Part shown: positions 35,378-49,760 of the stretch, piece after piece
How the letters are laid out: each line of letters opens with the position of its first letter
Position numbering within the stretch: the first letter of the stretch is position 1
Source: Gluconacetobacter dulcium
GTDB taxonomy: Bacteria > Pseudomonadota > Alphaproteobacteria > Acetobacterales > Acetobacteraceae
Assembly: GCF_014174165.1 (NCBI RefSeq)
Contig: NZ_JABEQN010000007.1
Span: forward strand, 62,001-126,000
Direction: 5' to 3'
Length of the DNA stretch: 64,000 nucleotides
Translations under genes and position numbers: made by a program
The notes under the pieces: generated by a model
The model's database searches: none
The model's input: the letters and a program-made list of their open reading frames with translations, nothing else
Told to the model about the DNA's origin: nothing

Positions 35378-35452
35378 GGGCGATTAGCTCAGCGGTAGAG
35401 CGTCTCGTTTACACCGAGAGGGTCGGCGGTTCGATCCCGTCATCGCCCACCA
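35378..35452 (+). tRNA. tRNA-Val (anticodon UAC)
   Basis: 75 bases with encoded CCA. The acceptor stem GGGCGAT pairs with ATCGCCC. The anticodon stem TCTCG/CGAGA holds the loop TTTACAC with TAC in the middle. The T loop GGTTCGATCCC is normal. Confidence 0.96.
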
Positions 35453-35564
35453 TCTGCCGGCTCGGTGCCGGCTTACCTGTCCTGTCTCGTCGGGATGCCG
35501 GACAAAATGATCATCTCCGGTTGACGCTTCCCGGCGGCATGGTTAAACACCGCCTCACGCCTTC

Positions 35565-35641
<77 letters not shown>

Positions 35642-35927: not shown

Positions 35928-36293
35928 ATGACGTCCGTTCTTGCGGATTATTTTCCAGTTCTGATTTTTGGTGTCCTGGCGGTCGTGATTGCCGGCGCGA
36001 TGCTGGGAAGCTCCCTGCTCTTCGGTCATCAGAAGCCCTATGCCGAAAAGGTGTCGGCTTACGAATGCGGGTTCGAGGCATTCGACGATGCGCGGCATCG
36101 TTTCGATGTCCGGTTCTATCTGGTGGCGATCCTGTTCATCATTTTCGACCTTGAAGTCGCCTTTCTTTTCCCTTGGGCGGTCAGTCTGTCGCGGATCGGC
36201 CTGTTCGGCTTTCTGTCGATGATGGGATTCCTGGGCATTCTGACGGTGGGGTTCATCTATGAATGGTGCAAAGGTGCCCTGGACTGGGATTGA
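35928..36293 (+). CDS. nuoA: NADH-quinone oxidoreductase subunit A
   Basis: A 121-residue inner-membrane subunit of respiratory complex I with three transmembrane helices (about 8-32, 62-82 and 88-110). The conserved loop [32 protein letters not shown], near the quinone-access region, carries the family Cys-Gly-Phe-Glu motif. It is the first gene of the nuo operon, with CAGGGAG nine bases before the ATG, followed by nuoB after 36 bases. Confidence 0.96.
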
Positions 36294-36329: not shown

Positions 36330-36905
36330 ATGAGTACCGCTGATGCGACAAGTGATGGGCAGGGCGCGATAGCCTGGAATCGGGACATGCTGCCTCCGGG
36401 GCCGGAGCAGGATGCCGTCATCAAGGGTATTACCGGCGAGATCACCGAGAAGGGGTTCGTCGTCGCCAACCTCGACAAGCTGGTCAATTGGGGCCGTACC
36501 GGTAGCCTGTGGCCGATGTCTTTCGGGCTGGCGTGCTGTGCGGTGGAAATGATCCACGCCTACATGCCGCGCTATGACCTGGACCGGATGGGCATCATTC
36601 CGCGCGGGTCGCCGCGCCAGTCCGACGTGATGATCGTGGCCGGGACCCTGACCAACAAGATGGCGCCCGCCCTGCGCCGCGTTTACGACCAGATGGCCGA
36701 GCCGCGCTGGGTGATCTCGATGGGGTCCTGCGCCAATGGCGGCGGTTATTATCACTATTCCTATTCCGTGGTGCGCGGATGCGACCGGATCGTGCCGGTG
36801 GACGTGTATGTTCCCGGTTGCCCGCCGACGGCGGAGGCGTTGATTTACGGCATCCTGCAGCTCCAGAAGAAAATCCGCAGGACAGGGACGATTCTCCGTG
36901 GCTGA
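36330..36905 (+). CDS. nuoB: NADH-quinone oxidoreductase subunit B
   Basis: A 191-residue peripheral-arm subunit holding the terminal [4Fe-4S] cluster N2, which passes electrons to quinone. The ligands are Cys69 and Cys70 (GLACCAVEM), Cys134 (GSCANGGG) and Cys164 (VPGCPP). GGGGAGG lies before the start. Its stop lies 8 bases inside nuoC, so the two are translationally coupled. Confidence 0.97.
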
Positions 36906-37563
36906 ACCGGGCACCGAACTGACGATGAAGGTGTCTCTGGCGCGTGGTGCGCTGGGGTCGCTGGCTTTCGCGCTGTCGACGGGCGTGCCCGGTATCCATT
37001 CGGCCGCGATTGAGGAGGGCGAACTGGTTGTGCGGACCGGCCGGGACCGCTTGCTCGCGTTGATGGGTCTCCTGCGCGATGATCCGCGCTATGCCTGCGA
37101 GCAACTGATGGATCTGTGTGGCGTCGACTATCCCGCTCGGGCGGAACGATTTGAGGTCGTCTATAATCTGTTGTCGGTGACGCATAATCACCGGATTCGT
37201 GTTATTGTGACGACGGATGAGGCCAATCCGGTGGCGTCGGTCCATCATCTGTGGCCGTGCGCTACGTGGTGGGAGCGCGAGTGCTACGACATGTATGGGG
37301 TCCTGTTTTCGGGGCAGCCGGATCTGCGGCGCATTCTGACCGATTACGGGTTCGAGGGGCATCCGCTGCGCAAGGACTTCCCGCTGACGGGCTATGTCGA
37401 GATGCGGTACGACGAGGATCGCCGTCAGGTGGTCTACGAACCGGTGAAGCTGACGCAGGATTTCCGCAATTTCGATTTTGAATCGCCGTGGGAGGGTATC
37501 CTGACCCTGCCGGGTGATGAGAAGGCCCATGAATCCCGCCAGGGACTGAAGTTGCCGCGATGA
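36898..37563 (+). CDS. nuoC: NADH-quinone oxidoreductase subunit C
   Basis: A 221-residue peripheral-arm subunit without cofactors. The family signature is in [14 protein letters not shown] and the [42 protein letters not shown] block. It is separate from nuoD, unlike the NuoCD fusion of E. coli. The GTG start at 36898 overlaps nuoB; an in-frame ATG 27 bases later (MKVSLARG) is possible. Confidence 0.95.
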
Positions 37564-37615: not shown

Positions 37616-38866
37616 ATGAGCGAGATTGTCCTTCACGAGGATATCCCGGAAGAGCTGATGTCCGCGGACGCGGCCGCCGAGGCACAGATCCGGACAGTGG
37701 AGATCGATTCCCACGCCCTGAATTTCGGCCCGCAGCATCCGTCGGCCCATGGTGTGCTGCGTCTGGTGCTGGAGATGGAAGGTGAGGTCGTTGCGCGCGC
37801 CATTCCGCATATCGGATTGCTGCATCGTGGCACCGAGAAGCTGATCGAATACAAGACCTATCCCAAGGCGCTGCCGTATTTCGATCGGCTCGATTACGTT
37901 TCGCCGATGTGCGAGGAACAGGCATTCGCGCTGGCGACGGAAAAGCTGCTGGGGATCGACATTCCCGACCGCGCGAAATGGATTCGCGTGATGTTCGCGG
38001 AAATGACGCGCATCCTGAACCATATCCTGAATCTGACCTCGTTCGGGCTGGATTGCGGTGCGCTGACCCCGGCGCTGTGGGGATATGAAGAGCGCGAGAA
38101 GCTGATCGAATTCTACGAGGCCGCGTCTGGCGCGCGCTTTCATGCCAATTATTTCCGTCCGGGTGGCGTGGCACGCGACCTGCCGGCGGGCCTGGAGGAG
38201 CGGATCGCGGAATGGGCGCGGCAGTTCCCGCGCTGGATCGACGATCTGGAAACGCTGCTGACCAATAACCGGATCTGGAAGCAGCGGACGGTCGGGATCG
38301 GCGTGTTCACCACCGAGCAGGCGTTGGCCTGGGGCTTCAGTGGTCCTTGTCTGCGGGCTTCGGGCGTGCCGTGGGATCTGCGCCGCGCGCAGCCGTATGA
38401 CAATTATGACAAGGTGACGTTCAATATCCCCGTCACGCGCCAGGGCGATTGCTACGATCGCTATCTGGTGCGTGTGGCGGAGATGCGCGAGAGCGTGAAG
38501 ATCGTCGAGCAGTGTCTGGCGCAGATCAAGCCGGGGCCGGTCAGGATCCAGGACCACAAGATCACCCCGCCGCCGCGCCGGGAGATGAAGCGGTCGATGG
38601 AAGCCTTGATCCATCATTTCAAGCTGTTCACCGAAGGGTATCATGTGCCGCCGGGTGCGACCTATACGGCGGTCGAGAGCCCCAAGGGCGAATTCGGGGT
38701 CTATCTGGTCGCGGACGGCAGCAATCGCCCCTACCGGTGCAAGATCCGGCCCACGGGCTTTGCCCATCTCCAGGCGATCGACGAGATGTCGCGCCGCCAT
38801 ATGCTGGCCGACGCGGTCGCGATCATCGGGTCGCTCGATCTGGTGTTCGGCGAGATAGACAGGTGA
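37616..38866 (+). CDS. nuoD: NADH-quinone oxidoreductase subunit D
   Basis: A 416-residue peripheral-arm subunit, the 49-kDa homologue, which with NuoB forms the quinone-binding site. [15 protein letters not shown] near residue 38 contains the conserved His of the quinone pocket, and [32 protein letters not shown] follows. The C-terminus ends in the usual [19 protein letters not shown] lies before the ATG, 52 bases after nuoC. Confidence 0.97.
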
Positions 38867-38871
38867 CAGAG

Positions 38872-39510
38872 ATGTCCGCTCATTCCCCCATCGATCAGAT
38901 CGAACAACCCGACAGCTTCGCCTTCGATGCTGAAAGCGAAGAGCAGATCGCGGCGATCCTGGCCAAATATCCGCCCGAGCGTAAGGCCAGCGGCACGCTC
39001 CCGCTTCTGTATGTCGTGCAGAAGCAGATGGGGCGGCAGACCGGGAGCGCCTGGGTGCCGCGCGTGGCGATGGACGAGGTTGCGCGCCGGCTGGATGTCG
39101 CGCCGATCCGTGTCTACGAAGTGGCGACCTTCTACCTGATGTTCAATACCAAGCCGATCGGGCGGTATCATCTTCAGGTCTGCACCACGACCTCCTGCTG
39201 GCTGCGTGGGTCGGACGATGTGGTCGCGGCTTGCAAGAAGGCGACCGGCATTGACGGTTTCGGCCAGTCGAGTGCCGACGGGCTGTTTACTCTGACCGAG
39301 GTGGAGTGCCTGGGGGCCTGCGCCAATGCGCCGATCCTGCAGATTGATGACGATTTCTACGAGGATATGGACGGACCGCGCACGATCGAACTGATCGAGG
39401 CGTTGCGTCGCGGCGAGCGGCCGACGCCGGGGCCGACGATCGACCGGTTGAACTCGGCGCCGGCCGGTGGACGCAAGACGCTGGCGGATAGTCCGGCGGA
39501 ACAGGGCTGA
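38872..39510 (+). CDS. nuoE: NADH-quinone oxidoreductase subunit E
   Basis: A 212-residue 24-kDa-type subunit with a thioredoxin-like fold binding the [2Fe-2S] cluster N1a through Cys104, Cys109 (QVCTTTSC), Cys146 and Cys150 (VECLGACANAP). The C-terminal 40 residues are a low-complexity Pro/Gly/Ala tail. The ATG at 38872 starts 5 bases after the nuoD stop; a GTG overlapping that stop at 38863 is an alternative. Confidence 0.95.
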   Translation: MSAHSPIDQIEQPDSFAFDAESEEQIAAILAKYPPERKASGTLPLLYVVQKQMGRQTGSAWVPRVAMDEVARRLDVAPIRVYEVATFYLMFNTKPIGRYHLQVCTTTSCWLRGSDDVVAACKKATGIDGFGQSSADGLFTLTEVECLGACANAPILQIDDDFYEDMDGPRTIELIEALRRGERPTPGPTIDRLNSAPAGGRKTLADSPAEQG

Positions 39511-39525
39511 GCGGGAGAGACGGCG

Positions 39526-40851
39526 ATGCTTCAGGATAAAGACCGGATCTTCACCAACCTGTATGGTCAGAACGACTGGCGGCTGGCAGGCGCGCGCCAG
39601 CGCGGCGACTGGGACGGCACTGCTGAGATCCTGGCGCGTGGCCGGGATGCCATCATCAACGAGATGAAGGGCTCTGGCCTGCGTGGTCGCGGCGGGGCTG
39701 GGTTTCCGACCGGTGTCAAATGGTCGTTCATGCCCAAGAATTCGGACGGGCGCCCGCATTACCTGGTCATCAATGGCGACGAGTCCGAGCCGGGAACCTG
39801 CAAGGATCGCGAGATCCTGCGGCATGAGCCGCACAAGCTGATTGAAAGCGCGCTGATCGCCTCCTTCGCGATGGGTGCGCATGCCGCCTATATTTATATC
39901 CGTGGCGAGTTCTTCAATGAGGCGCGCCATCTCCAGATCGCGATCGACGAAGCCTATGCGGCCGGGTTGATCGGCAGGAATGCCGCCGGATCGGGATGGG
40001 ATTTCGATTTTTACATCCATCGCGGTGCCGGCGCCTATATCTGCGGCGAGGAAACCGCGCTGCTGGAAAGCCTGGAAGGCAAGAAGGGGCAACCGCGCAT
40101 GAAGCCGCCCTTTCCGGCGGCGATGGGGCTGTATGGCTGTCCGACGACGGTCAACAATGTCGAGAGCATCGCGGTGTCGTCCACCATCCTGCGGCGCGGG
40201 GGCGCGTGGTTCTCGGCGCTGGGGCGGCCGAACAATGCGGGCACCAAGCTGATGGCCATTTCGGGCCATGTGAATACGCCTTGCGTGTTCGAGGAAGAAC
40301 TCGGCGTGCCGCTGAAGGAGATCATCGAGAAGCATGGCGGCGGCGTGCGCGGCGGCTGGGACAATCTGCTGGCGGTGATCCCCGGCGGATGTTCGGTGCC
40401 GCTGCTGCCGGCGTCGATCTGCGAAACGGTGCTGATGGATTATGACAGCCTGCGCGCCGAGCGTTCGGGCCTGGGCACCGCCTGCATGATCGTGATGGAC
40501 AAATCGACCGACATCATCAAGGCGATCGCCCGGTTCTCGCAATTCTTCAAGCATGAGAGCTGCGGCCAGTGCACGCCGTGCCGCGAAGGCACCGGCTGGA
40601 TGATGCGGGTCATGAACCGGATGGTCGAGGGACGGGCGGAAATCGAGGAAATCGACATGCTCGAACAGGTGACGCGCCAGGTCGAGGGCCACACGATCTG
40701 CGCCCTGGGCGATGCCGCAGCGTGGCCGATCCAGGGCCTGATCCGGCATTTCCGTCCGGTGATGGAAGAGCGGATTACCGCCTACAAGGCGGCTCATGGC
40801 GGTGGGCGGATCACGCAGGTGCCGCTGGGTATTCCCGTGGCGGCGGAGTAA
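39526..40851 (+). CDS. nuoF: NADH-quinone oxidoreductase subunit F, NADH/FMN subunit
   Basis: A 441-residue subunit that oxidises NADH and holds FMN and the [4Fe-4S] cluster N3. The N-terminal glycine-rich [16 protein letters not shown] binds nucleotide, and [19 protein letters not shown] contributes to the FMN/NADH site. The cluster ligands are in [15 protein letters not shown] plus a later Cys in [13 protein letters not shown]. It lies 15 bases after nuoE and 5 bases before nuoG, so the NADH-input module E-F-G is contiguous. Confidence 0.97.
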
Positions 40852-40856
40852 GGGCG

Positions 40857-42923
40857 ATGGTGAAAGTAACCGTCGACGGAATCGTCGTCGATGTTCCCAA
40901 CGGGTCCAGCGCGTTGCAGGCGTGCGAGGCGGCCGGCAAGGAAATTCCGCGCTTCTGTTTCCATGAGCGTCTGTCGGTCGCGGGCAATTGCCGCATGTGC
41001 CTGGTGCAGGTGGTGCGGGCGCCCAAGCCGGTGGCGTCCTGCGGTTTTCCGGTGGCGGAGGGGATGGAAATCCTGACCGACACCGAGATCGTGCGCAAGG
41101 CGCGGCGGGCGGTGATGGAATTCCTGCTGATCAACCATCCGCTGGACTGCCCGATTTGCGACCAGGGCGGCGAATGCGACCTGCAGGACCAGGCGTTCGG
41201 CTATGGCGCCGATCACTCGCGCTATCAGGAAGCCAAGCGCGCGGTGAAGGACAAATATCTCGGTCCGCTGGTCAAGACGGTGATGACGCGCTGCATTCAG
41301 TGCACGCGCTGCATCCGGTTCGCGACAGAGATCGCGGGTGTGCCTGAATTGGGTGCGGTTTCGCGTGGCGAGACCATGGAAGTCACCAATTATGTCGAGA
41401 AGGCGCTGACTTCGGAACTGTCGGGCAATCTGATCGACATCTGCCCTGTGGGTGCCCTGACCTCGAAGCCCTATGCCTTCACCGCCCGGCCGTGGGAGTT
41501 GAAGCGGACGGACTCGATCGACGTCAGCGACGCGGTGGGCGCCAATATCAGCCTGCATGTGCGCGGCAGTGCCGTGCTGCGGGCCGTGCCGCGCGTCAAT
41601 GATGCGGTGAACGAGGAATGGCTGGCTGACAAGGGGCGATTCTCGGTCGATGGGCTGAAGCATCGTCGTCTGGACCGGCCCTGGGTGCGGGTCCATGGCA
41701 AGTTGCAGGCGGTTTCGTGGCAGGATGCGTTCGTGGCCATCGGTCGCCGGCTGGACGGTGTGCCAGGGGATCGGATCGGGGCCATCGCCGGCGATCTGTG
41801 CGATGCCGAGAGCCTTCTGGCGCTGAAGGACCTGATGACGGCGCTGGGTTCGCCCAATGTCGACTGTCGTCAGGATGGTGCGGAGTATGATATGTCGCAT
41901 CGGGCTTATTATACCTTCGGCACCACCATTGCCGGGATCGAGGATGCCGACGCGCTGCTGATCGTGGGCGCGATTCCGCGCCAGGAAGCGCCGGTGCTGA
42001 ATGCGCGTATCCGCAAGCGTTTCCTGTCGGCGGGCCGTGGTGGGTTCCCGATCGGGTTGATCGGTGCGCCGACGGCTGACCCGACCTACAAGGCGGAGGT
42101 GCTGGGCGAGGGGCCGGACGTAATGGCCGCGCTGCGGGATGGTACGCATCCTTTCGCCGAGACGCTGAAGGCGGCGAAAAAACCGATGATCATCGTCGGG
42201 CACGGTGCGCTGACGCGGCCCGATGCGCGGGCGATCCTGGCTTCGACCTGGGCGCTGGCCGTCGAGGCCGGGGCGATCGCGGCGGGGTGGAACGGCTTCA
42301 ATATCCTGCATCGCGCGGCCAGTCGGGTCGCCGGGCTGGATCTGGGGCTGGTGCCGGGAAAAGGGGGACGCAGCGCCGCCGGGATGATGAGTGGCGGTGT
42401 CGACGTCCTGTGGCTGCTGGGGGCGGACGAGTTCCATACCGCGCAGATCGGGCCGCAGACGTTCGTCATCTATCAGGGCCATCATGGCGATGCGGCGGCG
42501 GCGCGGGCGGATGTGATCCTGCCGGGCGCGACCTATGCGGAGAAATCGGGCACTTATGTGAATACCGAGGGGCGGGTCCAGCGGTCGTTTCGGGCGGTCA
42601 TGCCGCCCGGCGACGCGCGCGAGGACTGGCGCATCCTGCGGGCGTTCTCCGAGGTCGTGGGCCATACGCTACCCTATGACACCGTGGAGGTGCTGCGCGA
42701 GCGGTTGGCGACGGTCAATCCGGTCTTCCGGGTGATCGGCGGTCTGGATGCGGTGGACGTGTCCGCGCTGCCGGGGCCAGCGGGAGGCGGTGCGGTGTCG
42801 CCGGCGCCGTTCCGCCCGGTCTTCGACGATTATTATCAGACGGACCCGATCTGCCGGGCGAGCCCGACGATGGGCGAATGTTCGCGGATCTATGTCCATC
42901 CCCGGACCGTGGCGGCGGAGTAA
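40857..42923 (+). CDS. nuoG: NADH-quinone oxidoreductase subunit G
   Basis: A 688-residue 75-kDa-type subunit. The N-terminal ferredoxin-like domain holds the [2Fe-2S] ligands in RFCFHERLSVAGNCRMCLVQV, the His/Cys cluster region follows in HPLDCPICDQGGECDLQDQAFG, and the [4Fe-4S] ligands are in CIQCTRCIRF with ICPVGALT. A molybdopterin-oxidoreductase-like domain without a cofactor follows (about 230-650). The ATG at 40857 follows AGGGCG. It is the electron conduit from NuoF toward NuoI and NuoB. Confidence 0.96.
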   Translation: MVKVTVDGIVVDVPNGSSALQACEAAGKEIPRFCFHERLSVAGNCRMCLVQVVRAPKPVASCGFPVAEGMEILTDTEIVRKARRAVMEFLLINHPLDCPICDQGGECDLQDQAFGYGADHSRYQEAKRAVKDKYLGPLVKTVMTRCIQCTRCIRFATEIAGVPELGAVSRGETMEVTNYVEKALTSELSGNLIDICPVGALTSKPYAFTARPWELKRTDSIDVSDAVGANISLHVRGSAVLRAVPRVNDAVNEEWLADKGRFSVDGLKHRRLDRPWVRVHGKLQAVSWQDAFVAIGRRLDGVPGDRIGAIAGDLCDAESLLALKDLMTALGSPNVDCRQDGAEYDMSHRAYYTFGTTIAGIEDADALLIVGAIPRQEAPVLNARIRKRFLSAGRGGFPIGLIGAPTADPTYKAEVLGEGPDVMAALRDGTHPFAETLKAAKKPMIIVGHGALTRPDARAILASTWALAVEAGAIAAGWNGFNILHRAASRVAGLDLGLVPGKGGRSAAGMMSGGVDVLWLLGADEFHTAQIGPQTFVIYQGHHGDAAAARADVILPGATYAEKSGTYVNTEGRVQRSFRAVMPPGDAREDWRILRAFSEVVGHTLPYDTVEVLRERLATVNPVFRVIGGLDAVDVSALPGPAGGGAVSPAPFRPVFDDYYQTDPICRASPTMGECSRIYVHPRTVAAE

Positions 42924-42929
42924 GGCGAC

Positions 42930-43955
42930 GTGGCGCATTTCTTTCTGCACACAATGATCGGTCAGGTGATCCTGACGGTTCTCGAAGCCCTGGCCGTTCT
43001 GGTGCCGCTTCTGCTGGGCGTGGCTTATCTGACCCTGGCCGAGCGCAAGGTCATGGCGGCGATGCAGCTTCGCAAGGGGCCGAACGTCAATGGCCCCTTC
43101 GGCGTGCTTCAAGCCTTCGCCGACGCGATCAAGATGATCACCAAGGAGACCGTGATCCCGTCCGGGGCCAACCGGTTTCTGTTCCTGTTCGCGCCGTTCC
43201 TGACCTTTTCGCTGGCCATGACGGCCTGGGCGGTCATTCCCACCAATGATGGCTGGGCAATCGCCAATATCAATGTCGGGGTGTTGTATCTGCTCGCGAT
43301 CTCTTCGCTGGGGGTCTATGGCGTGCTGATCGCGGGTTGGGCGTCGAACTCGAAATATGCCTTTCTCGGCGGCCTCCGTGCCGCGGCGCAGATGGTGTCG
43401 TATGAGGTGTCGATCGGCCTGGTGATCGTGTCGGTGCTGCTGGCGGTGGGTAGCCTGAACCTGAACGACATCGTGCTGGCGCAGCGCCATGTCTGGTTCT
43501 GCCTGCCGATGTTCCCGATGTTCATCATCTTCTTCATCTCGGCGCTGGCGGAAACCAATCGCGCGCCGTTCGATCTGCCCGAGGGCGAGAGTGAACTGGT
43601 GGCGGGCTTTTTCGTCGAATATTCGGCGTTGGCCTTCGGCCTCTTCTTCCTGGGCGAATATGCCAACATGTTCCTGATGTCGGGGATGGTCAGCATCCTG
43701 TTCCTCGGTGGCTGGCTGCCGCCGATCGGGATCGCGCCCTTTACCTGGATACCGGGGCCGCTGTGGCTGATCGCGAAAATCCTGTTCTGCCTGTTCGTCT
43801 TTATCTGGGTGCGCGCGACGTTTCCGCGCTACCGCTATGACCAGCTTATGCGCCTGGGCTGGAAAGTGTTCCTTCCGCTCTCGCTGGTGTGGATGGTGCT
43901 GACGGCCGGCTTCCTGCTGGCAACCGGGCTGCTGCCCCAGGGAGGAGCGAGCTGA
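42930..43955 (+). CDS. nuoH: NADH-quinone oxidoreductase subunit H
   Basis: A 341-residue inner-membrane subunit with about eight helices that forms the quinone tunnel at the junction of the two arms. [20 protein letters not shown] and the acidic loop [25 protein letters not shown] are diagnostic. The start is GTG at 42930, 6 bases after nuoG. Its TGA shares a base with the ATG of nuoI. Confidence 0.97.
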
Positions 43956-44443
43956 TGGGTACTCTTGATCGAACGATCCGTTCCTTTCTGCTGGCCGAAC
44001 TGGTGGCCGGCTTGGGCGCGACGCTGCGGGCCTTCTTCAAGCCCAAGGTGACGATCAATTATCCCTTCGAAAAGGGGCCGCTCTCACCGCGTTTCCGTGG
44101 GGAACATGCCCTGCGTCGCTATCCGAACGGCGAGGAACGCTGCATCGCCTGCAAGCTGTGCGAGGCGACCTGCCCGGCGGAGGCGATCACGATCGAATCC
44201 GAACCGCGCGATGACGGGTCGCGGCGCACGACGCGCTACGACATCGACATGACGAAATGCATCTATTGCGGCCTCTGCGAGGAAGCCTGCCCGGTCGATG
44301 CGATCGTCGAGGGGCCGAATTACGAGTTCGCGACCGAGACGCGCGAGGAACTCATGTACAACAAGGACAAGCTGCTCGCCAACGGCGACCGCTGGGAAAG
44401 TGTCCTGGCACGGCGGCTGGAACTCGATGCGCCCTATCGTTGA
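43955..44443 (+). CDS. nuoI: NADH-quinone oxidoreductase subunit I
   Basis: A 162-residue subunit with two 8Fe-ferredoxin-type motifs, [16 protein letters not shown] and [16 protein letters not shown], binding clusters N6a and N6b that link NuoG to NuoB. An amphipathic N-terminal helix (about 8-30) lies on the membrane. It starts inside the nuoH stop (TGATG), with GGAGGAGC upstream. Confidence 0.97.
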
Positions 44444-44503: not shown

Positions 44504-45262
44504 ATGATGACCCAAATCGTCTTCTACGTGTTCGCGACGGTACTGGTCCTGTCGGCCGGCATGGTGGTCAGCGCGCGTAATCCCGTTCACTCCGTGCTGT
44601 TCCTGATCCTGGCCTTTTTCAATGCCGCGGGTCTGTTTCTGGTCGCGGGGGCCGAATTCCTCGCGATGATCCTGGTCATCGTCTATGTCGGCGCCGTTGC
44701 GGTGCTGTTCCTGTTCGTCGTGATGATGCTCGATGTCCGCTTCGCGCAGATGCGCGAGGGATTGCAGCGTTATGCACCCTTCGGGGCGGCGGTGGGGCTG
44801 GTGCTGCTGGCGGAACTGGCGCTGGCTTTCAGCCACTGGCAGGTCGCGCAGGATATCGGTTCCGTGCCGCATGTGGTGGCGGCGCCGGGACGGACCAATA
44901 CCGCGGCGCTGGGTGACGTGCTGTATACGCATTACGTCTTCCTGTTCGAATCCTGCGGTCTGGTGCTGCTGGTGGCGATGATCGGCGCGATCGTGCTGAC
45001 GCTGCGCGAGCGGCCGATGGGGCGTCGGCAGAACATCGATCGGCAGCACGAACGCACGGTGGCGGATACGCTTGCCATGATGACCGTGCCTCTGGGGCAG
45101 GGCGTGGCCGCCAATGGTGGTTTCCGCCGGCCGGAACAATCCTACTACATCGCGTCGGTGCCCGGATCGTACGGGGTGACGGCCGAGCCCGTGCCTCAGG
45201 GCAAGCCGGTCGATGAGGCCCCGAAGCACGGTGCCGACAACCATGGAGGGCTGGCGCAATGA
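44504..45262 (+). CDS. nuoJ: NADH-quinone oxidoreductase subunit J with long C-terminal tail
   Basis: A 252-residue membrane subunit with five hydrophobic helices up to about residue 167 (including [27 protein letters not shown], the conserved third-helix region). A hydrophilic tail of about 85 residues follows, rich in Gly, Pro and charged residues and ending in a His/Gly/Asp stretch. E. coli NuoJ is 184 residues, so the tail is an extension that should face one side of the membrane. It starts at an ATGATG pair 60 bases after nuoI and overlaps nuoK by four bases. Confidence 0.93.
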
Positions 45263-45582
45263 CCGGCGGACTGGGAAGCATCGGTATCGGGCCTTATCTG
45301 ACGGTCAGTGCCATCCTGCTGGTTCTGGGTGTGTTCGGCATTTTCCTGAACCGGAAGAACGTCATCATCATCCTGATGTCGATCGAACTGATCCTGCTGT
45401 CGGCGAATTTGAATTTCGTCGCGTTTTCCTCGGCACTCGGCGACCTTTCCGGGCAGGTCTTTACCCTGTTTGTCCTGACCATCGCGGCGGCCGAATCCGC
45501 CATCGGGTTGGCGATCGTAACGGTCTATTTCCGCAATCGCGGGTCGATCGAGGTCGAAGACATCACCATGATGAAGGGCTGA
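45259..45582 (+). CDS. nuoK: NADH-quinone oxidoreductase subunit K
   Basis: A 107-residue membrane subunit with three helices. The proton-pathway Glu residues are in [20 protein letters not shown] and [16 protein letters not shown]. The start overlaps the nuoJ stop (ATGA), and nuoL follows after 7 bases. Confidence 0.97.
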
Positions 45583-45589
45583 GCGGGCC

Positions 45590-47530
45590 ATGCAAACGGC
45601 ATCTACCCTTTTTGAGATCGCGGTCCTTGGGCCTCTGTTTTCCTGTATTGTGGCGGGCCTGTTCGGGCGGATCATGGGCGATGGGGCAGCCAAGGCGCTG
45701 ACCACGTCCGTCATGGTGATCGCGGCCCTGTGCGGCAGCGGGGCGCTGTTCACCGCGATGCATGTCGGCGGCATGCCGGTCGTGGTGCAACTGGCGGACT
45801 GGATCCGCGCCGGGAGCTTCCACGCTGCCTGGACGCTGCGGCTGGACACGCTGTCGCTGTCGATGGTCGTCATGGTCACGGCGGTTTCGGCCCTCGTACA
45901 TATCTACAGCATTGGTTACATGGGGCATGAGACGACCCCGACCTATCGGTTCTTCTCGTATCTCTCGCTCTTTACCTTCGCGATGCTGATGCTGGTGACG
46001 TCGAACGACCTGATCCAGCTTTTCTTCGGCTGGGAAGGCGTTGGTTTGGCCAGCTATCTGCTGATCGGCTACTGGTATGATCGGCCCAGCGCCTGTGCCG
46101 CCGCGATCAAGGCCTTCGTGGTCAATCGCGTCGCCGACCTGTTCTTCATGGTCGGGATCGCGTTGCTGTTCGTCGAATTCGGCTCGGTGACCTACGACAA
46201 TATCTTTGCGCTGGTGCCGGCGCATGGCGACGACACCTACATGCTGTTCGGCACGCATCGGATCTACGAAACGATCTGTCTGCTGCTGTTTATCGGTGCG
46301 ATGGGCAAGTCGGCGCAGCTTTTCCTGCACACCTGGCTGCCGGATGCGATGGAAGGCCCGACGCCGGTCTCCGCGCTGATCCATGCCGCGACCATGGTGA
46401 CCGCCGGCGTGTTCCTGATGGCGCGGATGTCGCCGTTGGTGGAATTCGCGCCTGATACCAAGGCGTTCATCCTGTTCATCGGCGCGACGACCTGTTTCTT
46501 TGCCGCCACGGTGGGGCTGGTGCAGCCGGATATCAAGCGCACCATCGCCTATTCGACCTGTTCGCAGCTTGGCTACATGTTCATGGCGGTCGGGGCCGGG
46601 GCTTACCAAGCGTCGATGTTCCATCTGACGACGCATGCGTTCTTCAAGGCGCTACTCTTCCTGGGTGCCGGCTCGGTGATCCATGCCGTTCATGACGAGC
46701 AGAACATGTTCCGCATGGGGGGGCTGTGGAAGAAGATTCCGCTGACCTATGGCGCAATGTGGCTGGGCAGCCTGGCGCTTGCCGGCATCTTTCCCTTTGC
46801 CGGATACTGGTCGAAGGACGCGATTCTGGAGGCCACATGGATGGCCCATAGCGGTCTCGGCTTCTATGGCTGGACGCTGGGCTGCGTTACGGCCTTCATT
46901 ACCGCGCTCTATAGCTGGCGTCTGATCTTTCTGGTCTTTCATGGCACGCCGCGCGATGCGCACCTGCATGAGGGCGCGCATGAGAGCCCGGTCTGGATGA
47001 CGCTGCCGCTGGTTCTGCTGGGCGTGGGTGCCGTGCTGGCCGGGCTGCTGCTGGCGCCGTACTATGTCGGCGAGGGACAGGCCGCGTTCTGGAGCGGGGC
47101 GATCGTGAATGCGCCGGGCAACACCGTCATCGCGACGCTGGAACAGACGCCGGAACTGATCGCGCTGGTGCCGACCTTTGCCGGTGTGCTGGGGATTCTG
47201 GTCGCTTATCTCTGCTATGTCGCCAGCCCGACCATTCCGGCGTCGTTCGCGACCAGCCTGCGGCCGATCTATCTGTTCCTGCTGAACAAATGGTATTTCG
47301 ACGAACTGTATGACCATCTGTTCGTCCGGCCGTACCGTGCGCTGGCCAACCTGTTGTGGAAGGGCGCGGACGAAGGGGTGATCGAGGGGATCCCGCAGGG
47401 TCTGGCCCGGATGACGGCCGGAACCGCTGCCCAGGCGGTGCGGACCCAGACCGGTTCGATCGCGATCTATGCCTTCACGATGCTGATCGGCCTGGTGGTG
47501 CTCGTCTCCACCCTGCTGGTCTTCCATTGA
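45590..47530 (+). CDS. nuoL: NADH-quinone oxidoreductase subunit L, antiporter-like
   Basis: A full-length 646-residue antiporter-like subunit, normally the distal proton-pumping unit of the membrane arm. Features are the TM5 region LIQLFFGWEGVGLASYLLIGYWY with its Glu, the TM7/8 region HTWLPDAMEGPTPVSALIHAATMVTAGVFL with Lys/His positions, the loop after LVQPDIKRTIAYSTCSQLGYMF, and at the C-terminus (about 560-646) the segment that forms the long lateral helix and final anchor. It is not fused or truncated. The expected next gene, nuoM, is missing: nuoN begins 23 bases after the stop. Confidence 0.96.
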   Translation: MQTASTLFEIAVLGPLFSCIVAGLFGRIMGDGAAKALTTSVMVIAALCGSGALFTAMHVGGMPVVVQLADWIRAGSFHAAWTLRLDTLSLSMVVMVTAVSALVHIYSIGYMGHETTPTYRFFSYLSLFTFAMLMLVTSNDLIQLFFGWEGVGLASYLLIGYWYDRPSACAAAIKAFVVNRVADLFFMVGIALLFVEFGSVTYDNIFALVPAHGDDTYMLFGTHRIYETICLLLFIGAMGKSAQLFLHTWLPDAMEGPTPVSALIHAATMVTAGVFLMARMSPLVEFAPDTKAFILFIGATTCFFAATVGLVQPDIKRTIAYSTCSQLGYMFMAVGAGAYQASMFHLTTHAFFKALLFLGAGSVIHAVHDEQNMFRMGGLWKKIPLTYGAMWLGSLALAGIFPFAGYWSKDAILEATWMAHSGLGFYGWTLGCVTAFITALYSWRLIFLVFHGTPRDAHLHEGAHESPVWMTLPLVLLGVGAVLAGLLLAPYYVGEGQAAFWSGAIVNAPGNTVIATLEQTPELIALVPTFAGVLGILVAYLCYVASPTIPASFATSLRPIYLFLLNKWYFDELYDHLFVRPYRALANLLWKGADEGVIEGIPQGLARMTAGTAAQAVRTQTGSIAIYAFTMLIGLVVLVSTLLVFH

Positions 47531-47553
47531 TCTCCGGGAACGGGTTTGAACCG

Positions 47554-48978
47554 ATGAACTGGACACTTGCTCTGCCGGAAATCGTCCTGGCGCTGTGTGG
47601 CCTCGCGATCCTCGTCTTCGGGGTGGTGCAGAAGAAGGGGCAGCCCTTTCTTTCCTGTTCCATGCTGACGATCGGCGCCTTCGTCCTGACCGCGTTCCTG
47701 GTCGTGATGTCGCCGGACGGGGTCGGCTACAACCACATCTTCGTCAATGACAGCTTTGCCCGTTTCATGAAGATCCTCAGCCTGGCCGGCGGGGCGGCGG
47801 CCATGATGCTGACGGTCGGCTATGCGCGGGCGCTGAAGGTGGAACGATTCGAGTTCCCGGTCCTGCTGCTGTTTTCGACCCTCGGCACGATGATGATGGC
47901 GTCGTCGGGTAATCTGATGACGCTGTTCATCGGGCTGGAACTGTCGTCGCTGGCCATCTACATCCTCTGCGCTTTTGCGCGGGACGATGTGCGGGGCGCC
48001 GAGGCAGGGCTGAAATATTTCGTGCTTGGTTCGCTGGCCTCGGGGCTGCTGCTCTATGGATCGGCGCTGGTTTATGGCTTTGCCGGTACCATGGAATATG
48101 GCGCCATCCAGACCGCGCTCAGCGCGACGTCCGCCGTGCCGCTGGGGCTGATGATCGGTATCGTGTTCATGCTGGCGGGGCTGACCTTCAAGCTGTCGGC
48201 GGTGCCGTTCCATATGTGGACGCCTGATGTCTATCAGGGCGCGCCGACCCCGGTGACGGCGTTCATGGCCGGTGCGCCGAAGATCGCGGCCTTTGCGCTG
48301 CTGCTGCGGGTGATGGCCGGGCCGTTCGGTCATGTCGCGCCGCAATGGCAGATGCTGGTCGAAGCCATTGCGATCGTCTCCATGTTGTTCGGGTCGCTGG
48401 CCGCCATTCCGCAGACCGATATCAAGCGGCTGATGGCCTATTCCTCGATCGGCCATATGGGCTACGCGCTGATGGGGCTGTCGGCCGGTACCGAAGAGGG
48501 CATGCGCGGGACGCTGGTTTATCTGACGACCTATCTGCTCATGAATGTCGGTGCGTTCGCCGTGATTATCGCCATGCGTCGCAAGGGGCGGGCGGTGACG
48601 GGGATTGCCGATCTGGCCGGGCTGGGCCGCACTGATCCGGGGCTGGCCACCGCGATGGCGATCTTCATGTTCAGCATGGCGGGGGCGCCGCCGCTGGCCG
48701 GTTTCTTCGGCAAGTTGATGGTGTTTTATGCCGCGATCAATGCTCACCTGTTCGGGCTGGCGGCGGTCGGTGTCGTCAGCAGCGTGATTGGTGCCTATTA
48801 TTATGTGCGTATCATCATGGTGATGTTCTTCGATGAGGCGGCGGCGCCGCTTGACCGGCGGCCCCTGTCGCTGTCCTTCGTCTCCGTCGGGATGGGGGTT
48901 GCGACCGTAGGATTCCTGGTGGTGCTGGGCCCGGTTTCGACGGCGGCCCAGGCCGCGGCTCAGGCTCTGTTCAGGTGA
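47554..48978 (+). CDS. nuoN: NADH-quinone oxidoreductase subunit N, antiporter-like
   Basis: A 474-residue antiporter-like membrane subunit that normally sits next to NuoK and contacts NuoM. NuoN-specific sequences are LFIGLELSSLAIYILCAFARDD, KLSAVPFHMWTPDVYQGAPTPVTAFMAGAPK and TDIKRLMAYSSIGHMGYALMGL. It is full length and begins MNWTLALPEIVLALCG, a normal NuoN N-terminus, so it is not a NuoM-NuoN hybrid. The ribosome site before 47554 is weak. Its stop shares a base with the birA ATG (TGATG). Confidence 0.95.
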   Translation: MNWTLALPEIVLALCGLAILVFGVVQKKGQPFLSCSMLTIGAFVLTAFLVVMSPDGVGYNHIFVNDSFARFMKILSLAGGAAAMMLTVGYARALKVERFEFPVLLLFSTLGTMMMASSGNLMTLFIGLELSSLAIYILCAFARDDVRGAEAGLKYFVLGSLASGLLLYGSALVYGFAGTMEYGAIQTALSATSAVPLGLMIGIVFMLAGLTFKLSAVPFHMWTPDVYQGAPTPVTAFMAGAPKIAAFALLLRVMAGPFGHVAPQWQMLVEAIAIVSMLFGSLAAIPQTDIKRLMAYSSIGHMGYALMGLSAGTEEGMRGTLVYLTTYLLMNVGAFAVIIAMRRKGRAVTGIADLAGLGRTDPGLATAMAIFMFSMAGAPPLAGFFGKLMVFYAAINAHLFGLAAVGVVSSVIGAYYYVRIIMVMFFDEAAAPLDRRPLSLSFVSVGMGVATVGFLVVLGPVSTAAQAAAQALFR

Positions 48979-49760
48979 TGGCGCGGCCGGTGCCGGGAGC
49001 GACAGCCTGGCGCCTCGAGATTCATGACGAACTGGGGTCTACGTCCGATCGCTGCGTCGAGCAGGCCAGTCTCGGGGCCGAGGCTGGGCTGGCGATCATG
49101 GCCCGACGCCAGACCAGTGGGCGGGGAAGTCGGGGCCGCGACTGGCAGGACCCAGGCGGGAATCTGGCCTTCTCGGTTCTGCTGCGCCCCGTCGAGGCTG
49201 AAGGTGCGATTGGACTCTGGCCGTTCGTGGCCGGACTGGCCTTCCATGGGGCGATCCTGCCCACGGTTCACGATCCCGCGCAGTTGCGGCTGAAATGGCC
49301 CAACGATCTGCTGCTGGGCGGATGCAAGACCGCCGGCATCCTGATCGAGAGCGGGAGCGATGCCGCGGGGCGGTGGCTGGTCATCGGGTTCGGGGCCAAT
49401 CTGCGGGCCGCGCCTTCGATTGCCGGGCGGACTCTTGCCTGCGTCGCCGATTATGGAACCGTGCCGGCCCCTGAGACCGTAGCCCGCGCGATCTGTGTTG
49501 AACTGGATCGCTGGCAGGCGGTGTGGCGCTCTGACGGGTTCGGTTCGCTGCGCGCGGCATGGCTGGAGCGAGCCCACCCGATTGGCACGAGACTTGTAGT
49601 GCGCGACGAAAGCGGGCAGGTAGAAGGTTCGTTTGTGGGTCTGGACGAGCAGGGGATGCTCCTGCTGGGCTGTGCCGATGGGCTGAAACGGATTTCGACC
49701 GGCGAGATCCTGCTGTTGGACCGTGACGCTGCCGGGGTGTCCGGGCGGGCGGGAACCTGA
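48978..49760 (+). CDS. birA: Biotin-[acetyl-CoA-carboxylase] ligase
   Basis: A 260-residue cytosolic enzyme that makes biotinyl-AMP and attaches biotin to carrier proteins. The biotin/ATP site SGRGSRGRDWQDPGGNLAFSVLLRP, LKWPNDLLLGGCKTAGILIE and the C-terminal SH3-like domain (RLVVRDESGQVEGSFVGLDEQGMLLL) are present. It lacks the N-terminal helix-turn-helix of E. coli BirA, so it is a ligase only and not a repressor. The ATG overlaps the nuoN stop; a GTG one codon earlier is also possible. Its place behind nuoN is a conserved alphaproteobacterial arrangement. Confidence 0.93.
   Translation: MARPVPGATAWRLEIHDELGSTSDRCVEQASLGAEAGLAIMARRQTSGRGSRGRDWQDPGGNLAFSVLLRPVEAEGAIGLWPFVAGLAFHGAILPTVHDPAQLRLKWPNDLLLGGCKTAGILIESGSDAAGRWLVIGFGANLRAAPSIAGRTLACVADYGTVPAPETVARAICVELDRWQAVWRSDGFGSLRAAWLERAHPIGTRLVVRDESGQVEGSFVGLDEQGMLLLGCADGLKRISTGEILLLDRDAAGVSGRAGT

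Follow-up and report, generated by a model that had tools for sequence, protein, structure and literature searches.

In acetic acid bacteria, one nuo operon for respiratory complex I is described as common and a second type as present in some, and nuoHIJKLN have been used for a tree (accessible text of PMC4596401). For Acetobacter pasteurianus SKU1108, nuoM was listed apart from the operon in one sentence, to which the accessible part of the report adds no comment, neighbour, clade-wide comparison or origin (PMC5158111). More broadly, most clades have been reported to include complex I gene sets that are not confined to one cluster as well as sets that are (PMC12361115). Here we analysed the complex I operon, of alphaproteobacterial type, in a 64,000-nucleotide stretch of the Gluconacetobacter dulcium genome (hereafter the window; G000:C7:62001-126000), in which nuoL is followed by nuoN without nuoM. 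This locus is like those split gene sets in that a subunit gene lies outside the main cluster; that study differs in that Acetobacter is not named in its main text (0 occurrences) and paralogue replacement is not among the subjects of its accessible text. The literature searched on nuoM in acetic acid bacteria, as far as its text was accessible, held no account of the clade-wide pattern or of its origin. A moved subunit gene is already known in kind, and the paralogue history proposed below is a variant of it. We consider it likely, with good confidence, that the window operon lacks nuoM because this lineage encodes its NuoM at another locus, probably as a diverged duplicate that replaced the operon copy.

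A nuoM gene behind mutL and the operon without it

Searching the source genome with the NuoM profile TIGR01972 gave six matches, two of them over the cut-off (263.8). A full-length solo nuoM gene, encoding 502 residues, was located at G000:C1:314276-315718 on the minus strand; its product scores about 546 bits (545.9-546.3) with TIGR01972 and 592.2 bits with the equivalog NF004499 (cut-off 585). On the same strand, the gene is preceded by ileS, lspA, a DUF3035 gene and mutL, and it lies on a contig other than that of the window. In the nearest named record fetched, from G. liquefaciens, the NuoM is 99% identical. The sequence-only reading had offered a move of nuoM to another place as one possibility and had proposed a whole-genome NuoM search; the full-length gene found behind mutL bears out the move and, in the terms of that reading, reduces the observation to a relocation.

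In an alignment to E. coli NuoM, the residues E144, K234, H241, K265, H322, H348 and E407 (E. coli numbering) are kept in all 24 moved NuoM proteins. We take E144, K234 and K265 to be pump residues and E407 to be typical of NuoM. The moved protein is like NuoM/ND4 in passing the curated cut-offs of both families (TIGR01972, NF004499) and in conserving E144, K234, K265 and E407, and like the solved relative chain 8qby_M, with residues 5-497 aligned; unlike the usual NuoM/ND4, it is coded alone, behind mutL.

A terminator-like hairpin of 13 pairs follows the nuoM stop (L007 9200-9171); such sites number three in the stretch, against a mean of 1.5 after shuffling. The promoter scan gave no promoter-like site upstream of the solo nuoM. 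Between mutL and nuoM lies the motif CTCGGSAGAACGTGA (L007:10806-10820, minus strand), which most loci of Gluconacetobacter and Novacetimonas conserve. It occurs exactly only once in the genome, with one further copy that carries a mismatch, and is perhaps a promoter or leader element. A role of this motif as a control element common to nuoM and nuoA was rejected, since its matches in the window are only at chance level and none is near nuoA.

In the window, matching each subunit to NCBIfam models gave the standard order nuoA-B-C-D-E-F-G-H-I-J-K-L and then nuoN, with nuoM absent. The features are:

35928..36293, + strand: nuoA (NCBIfam subunit A models, best 103.7 bits, under the model cut-off of 155)
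36330..36905, + strand: nuoB (NF005012, 266.5 bits)
36898..37563, + strand: nuoC (NF004733, 285.5 bits)
37616..38866, + strand: nuoD (NF004739, 607.2 bits)
38449..39510, + strand: open frame containing nuoE (TIGR01958, 157.8 bits; NF005724, 211.6 bits; family match from residue 149)
39526..40851, + strand: nuoF (NF010120, 826.5 bits)
40569..42923, + strand: open frame containing nuoG (TIGR01973, 723.6 bits; family match from residue 100)
42930..43955, + strand: nuoH (NF004745, 515.4 bits)
43889..44443, + strand: nuoI (NF004539, 306.7 bits; family match from residue 26)
44504..45262, + strand: nuoJ (NF005164, 263.8 bits)
45259..45582, + strand: nuoK (NF004323, 161.1 bits)
45590..47530, + strand: nuoL, full length, 646 aa (TIGR01974, 790.3 bits, residues 7-642)
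47531..47553, + strand: nuoL-nuoN junction of 23 bases, the nuoM site in other Acetobacteraceae (sequence read and comparison)
47554..48978, + strand: nuoN, full length, 474 aa (NF004440, 607.1 bits, residues 3-473)
48975..49760, + strand: birA-like biotin ligase gene, directly after nuoN (TIGR00121, 120.6 bits)

The 23-base junction holds no gene and is too short for nuoM on either strand. A hybrid or fused NuoL-NuoN was ruled out, because each protein matches its own family almost end to end. The earlier description of a standard gene order with 23 bases between nuoL and nuoN, both full length and neither a hybrid, thus agrees with the NCBIfam matches and the junction sequence. For annotators, this calls for caution, as acetous operons labelled nuoA-nuoN can be without M. 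The birA-like gene also follows nuoN in many relatives that have nuoM in the operon. Genes for tRNA-Val and tRNA-Asp lie just upstream of nuoA (window 35378-35641).

The mutL-nuoM loci and the nuoL-nuoN junction in relatives

Species genomes were scanned with the solo NuoM, and the locus counts that follow rest on the best 80 of 114 relatives. At 66 of these 80 loci, nuoM stands without nuoL or nuoN alongside in the stretch examined. An upstream mutL is no more than 400 bases away in 54 of the 66 and farther off in five (L015, L016, L058, L066, L070), and none was seen in the fetched stretches of seven (L031-L034, L062, L064, L065), of which L033 has only 213 bases upstream. The genera with mutL-nuoM are Gluconacetobacter, Komagataeibacter, Novacetimonas, Acetobacter, Commensalibacter and Lichenicoccus. 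The remaining 14 loci, at which nuoL and/or nuoN adjoin nuoM, come from other Acetobacteraceae or Rhodospirillales metagenome-assembled genomes (MAGs), one unclassified alphaproteobacterium and Acidobacteria; other Acetobacteraceae retain the order nuoL-nuoM-nuoN. The gene-order search matched only genomes of the same family.

nuoN was searched for in 48 of the 66 genomes and in two controls, and it was present in 47 of the 48, the exception being G156. Junctions were sampled in 38 of the 47 nuoN-bearing genomes and in four further genomes, and in all 42 nuoL is followed by nuoN without nuoM, with a gap of 2-151 bases as judged by tblastn ends; the junctions of L140 and L144 have the same nuoM-less appearance, and both control junctions (L124, L126) hold nuoM between nuoL and nuoN. 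The comparison of this junction in relatives, which the sequence-only reading had suggested, therefore marks the arrangement as no artefact of the window. Two genomes with the nuoM-less junction, those of G. diazotrophicus PA1 5 and Commensalibacter melissae (NC_011365.1, NZ_CP033087.1), are closed, and assembly error is excluded for that reason.

In the Acetobacter nitrogenifigens/oeni group (L031, L034, L062, L142), nuoM and mutL are apart, with no mutL in the fetched stretch, which suggests a further move of one of the two genes. In a MAG that is titled, probably wrongly, Asaia bogorensis (L077, CALQTN020000010.1), nuoM lies within the operon and its product groups with relatives outside the moved clade. 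In A. malorum DsW_057 (G156), the mutL-nuoM pair is present, and no NuoL, NuoN or NuoD orthologue or BirA was found; a natural operon loss with nuoM kept was rejected in favour of an assembly gap, because the biotin ligase gene, the neighbour downstream of nuoN in relatives, went undetected as well.

Origin of the moved copy

Branch lengths were compared on a fixed NuoL+NuoN topology of 50 genomes, of which 20 carry a moved nuoM. The stem branch to the moved group measured 0.617 for NuoM, 0.213 for NuoL and 0.148 for NuoN, about three times the NuoL and four times the NuoN value. Among operon copies, NuoM was the slowest of the three, with a tree length of 7.64 versus 11.39 (NuoL) and 10.65 (NuoN); a long NuoM stem in spite of this indicates that NuoM was rewritten on the stem branch. 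Mean identity inside the moved clade was 64.8% for NuoM, 66.6% for NuoL and 63.9% for NuoN (190 pairs), and among operon-copy genomes 71.4, 65.8 and 63.2%, respectively (435 pairs). Constraint on the moved copy is somewhat weaker, because operon NuoM is more conserved than NuoL and NuoN and moved NuoM is only about equal to them. Moved and operon NuoM share a mean identity of 50.5%. Sixteen changes are fixed across the clade in moved NuoM, a ready list for asking what is tunable in the central antiporter, and 12 of them also occur in the solo copy of genome G100.

In a tree of 67 NuoM rows, the moved proteins form one clade (support 96/84). Its sister, supported at 100/100, comprises the solo NuoM of G100 and the second, putatively solo NuoM of G184, two genomes that we presume to be Granulibacter, partly because that genus is placed at the start of the acetous clade in the accessible text of PMC10715153. 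G100, a single contig of 2.7 Mb, keeps nuoM in its operon as well (L143); the second NuoM of G184, also a single contig, scores 641 bits. A reduced tree of 53 of the 67 rows, from which six outgroups, L147, L148, L161 and L162 (fast operon copies), L130, L213 and the solo copies of G102 and G011 were dropped, keeps the grouping, with the moved clade at 98/86 and moved plus solo at 100/100; the two trees overlap in their rows. The moved NuoM did not fall with the operon copies of its nearest relatives apart from the solos, as an orthologue of operon nuoM would. Approximately unbiased (AU) tests on the same 53 rows rejected the solo as a young copy of G100's own operon nuoM (130.7 log units) and also rejected a grouping of moved NuoM with the operon NuoM of G043 and G006 that excludes the solo (133.0 log units), and did not reject a clade that unites moved and solo NuoM with the operon copy of G100 (p 0.42). 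By NuoL+NuoN, G100 as sister to the acetous clade was not rejected (p 0.237).

Judged from these trees, nuoM would first have been duplicated out of the operon; the solo copy would then have diverged fast, and the operon copy would later have been lost in the ancestor of the acetous clade, which would since run on the paralogue. G100 still holds both kinds of copy. The moved NuoM looks like a diverged paralogue, which the sequence-only reading had not foreseen. The solo-coded NuoM would be made apart from the other 13 subunits and may take its place between NuoN and NuoL, in a complex of 14 subunits that is normal in other respects. Proteomic data for A. pasteurianus lend indirect support to a joint use of NuoM and the other subunits: in the accessible text of PMC10742644, nuoM is HN.1610 and the other nuo genes are HN.3342-3354, the ratios are 0.62, 0.33, 2.16 and 1.78 for NuoM and 0.93, 0.31, 2.22 and 2.12 for NuoN, and the changes in NuoM resemble those of NuoB-NuoI and NuoN. 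The system offers a clean natural case in which a core subunit gene of a 14-subunit enzyme left the operon, stayed apart clade-wide and was rewritten on one branch. If the acetous bacteria thereby swapped the central proton-pumping subunit for a diverged paralogue, G100-like genomes, with two NuoM forms for one operon, might build two versions of complex I differing in coupling or regulation; this fuller reading is rather doubtful, if conceivable.

Several observations weigh against this history. The neighbours of moved plus solo NuoM change from G068, G023 and G096 with G053 (67 rows) to G043 with G006 (53 rows), and long branches are present in both NuoM trees; Granulibacter proteins form long branches in the published analysis too (accessible text of PMC10715153). 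The placement of G100 by NuoL+NuoN is unsure. In the MutL tree, the genome closest to the acetous clade is G006 (99/96), for which no solo copy over the cut-off was found. Of the 16 clade-fixed changes, eight recur in the solo NuoM of G011 and three in that of G102, both unrelated copies, so that convergence counts. Nor did the AU test reject the solo inside the moved clade, as a transfer would give (p 0.12).

The last result bears on a possible but less probable account, a plain relocation, in which the ancestral operon nuoM moved behind mutL in one step and evolved fast afterwards, G100 and G184 having received their solo copy by later transfer from an early acetous bacterium. This would also suit the reduced tree, which puts moved and solo NuoM by the operon NuoM of G043 and G006, and the genomes nearest the clade, G006 in the MutL tree and G043 in the NuoL+NuoN trees, which show no solo over the cut-off. 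However, the solo stands outside the moved clade in both NuoM trees (96/84; 98/86), the solo of G100 (C1:813154) is unlinked to mutL (C1:531607), and the threefold NuoM stem would better fit a redundant phase. On balance, we lean towards duplication, divergence and loss over relocation with later transfer to G100.

Family census, the second complex I and further NuoM copies

In a census of 120 family genomes, NuoM matches over the cut-off were paired with NuoN places; the census overlaps widely with the set of named genomes, where the same places recur (for example G073 and G153), and the two sets are therefore not independent. In 79 of the 120, nuoM lies within 3 kb of this nuoN type with none elsewhere over the cut-off, and in four it occurs both near this nuoN and elsewhere (G011, G041, G100, G102). 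nuoM elsewhere only was found in 15, reduced to 13, among them the source genome, after removal of G052 and G091, which were rejected as relocations and judged to be contig breaks from their NuoM and NuoN coordinates; for 10 of the 13 the junction sequence was inspected directly, G030, G042 and G117 resting on NuoM and NuoN positions. Ten genomes have neither nuoM nor this nuoN. In ten more, the other operon type is the sole one, and three of those also encode an extra NuoM, as part of a nuoL-nuoM pair. Two genomes stand outside the classes: in G082, which is 73% complete and has no NuoM, nuoN is at the start of a contig, and in G004 NuoL-NuoM is at the end of one.

A solo nuoM was present in all 13 genomes with the nuoM-less operon, all of which have this nuoN, and a solo nuoM of this kind occurred in none of the 20 genomes without this nuoN (some of them <90% complete). 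This contrast ties the solo nuoM to this operon. It is not confined to nuoM-less genomes, as G100 has a solo of this kind and a complete operon.

The source genome carries a second complex I (G000:C3; L008:3692-17025), in which a fused nuoCD was identified, and the solo NuoM might in principle serve that complex or another antiporter rather than the window operon. This is very improbable: the C3 cluster itself encodes a NuoM (512 bits), flanked by two other antiporter-like genes of which one is matched by NuoN, and eight of the 13 moved-nuoM genomes show no second NuoN at E 1e-40, so that no second complex is there for the solo NuoM to serve. In G022, G025 and G048, moreover, where the other operon type alone is accompanied by an extra NuoM, the NuoM of the nuoL-nuoM pair shares 37-41% with the source-genome NuoM and is not of the moved kind.

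Still less credible is a true loss, in which the complex I of this lineage would work without NuoM and with a shorter membrane arm. An operon without nuoM is what such a loss would leave; yet a complete NuoM is coded in the genome, nuoM lies elsewhere in all 13 such family genomes (G082 not counted), and NuoM within the clade is about as conserved as NuoL and NuoN. The altered membrane arm with lower proton yield suggested by the sequence-only reading finds no support in a genome that encodes NuoM with E144, K234, K265 and E407, and the false alarm of a NuoM-less complex I is thereby removed. The other earlier suggestion, an assembly collapse at the junction or a loss of about 1.5 kb there in this strain alone, is refuted, no point in its favour having been found and the same junction recurring in 42 of 42 loci of other genomes, from many species and including the two closed ones.

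Some further NuoM copies were observed in the family. In G022, G025 and G048, the nuoL-nuoM pair stands alone, with no nuoN or nuoK matches in the fetched stretches (L149, L150, L151:7100-10500); the family matches were checked in L150 alone. All three genomes carry a further operon of the same general type. Solo NuoM copies are encoded in G102 (L157:7956-9467) and G011 (L158:7977-9494), genomes whose operon includes nuoM. In both copies N replaces K265, and in that of G011 Y also replaces H348; with these residues, the two appear to be altered as pumps. A second nuoL-nuoM pair is present in G041 (L159:4399-7861). These solos and the second pair of G041 were rejected as members of the moved kind and regarded as other duplications, since they stand apart from the moved clade in the tree. 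G064 contains two operon copies, each with nuoM (L137, L138).

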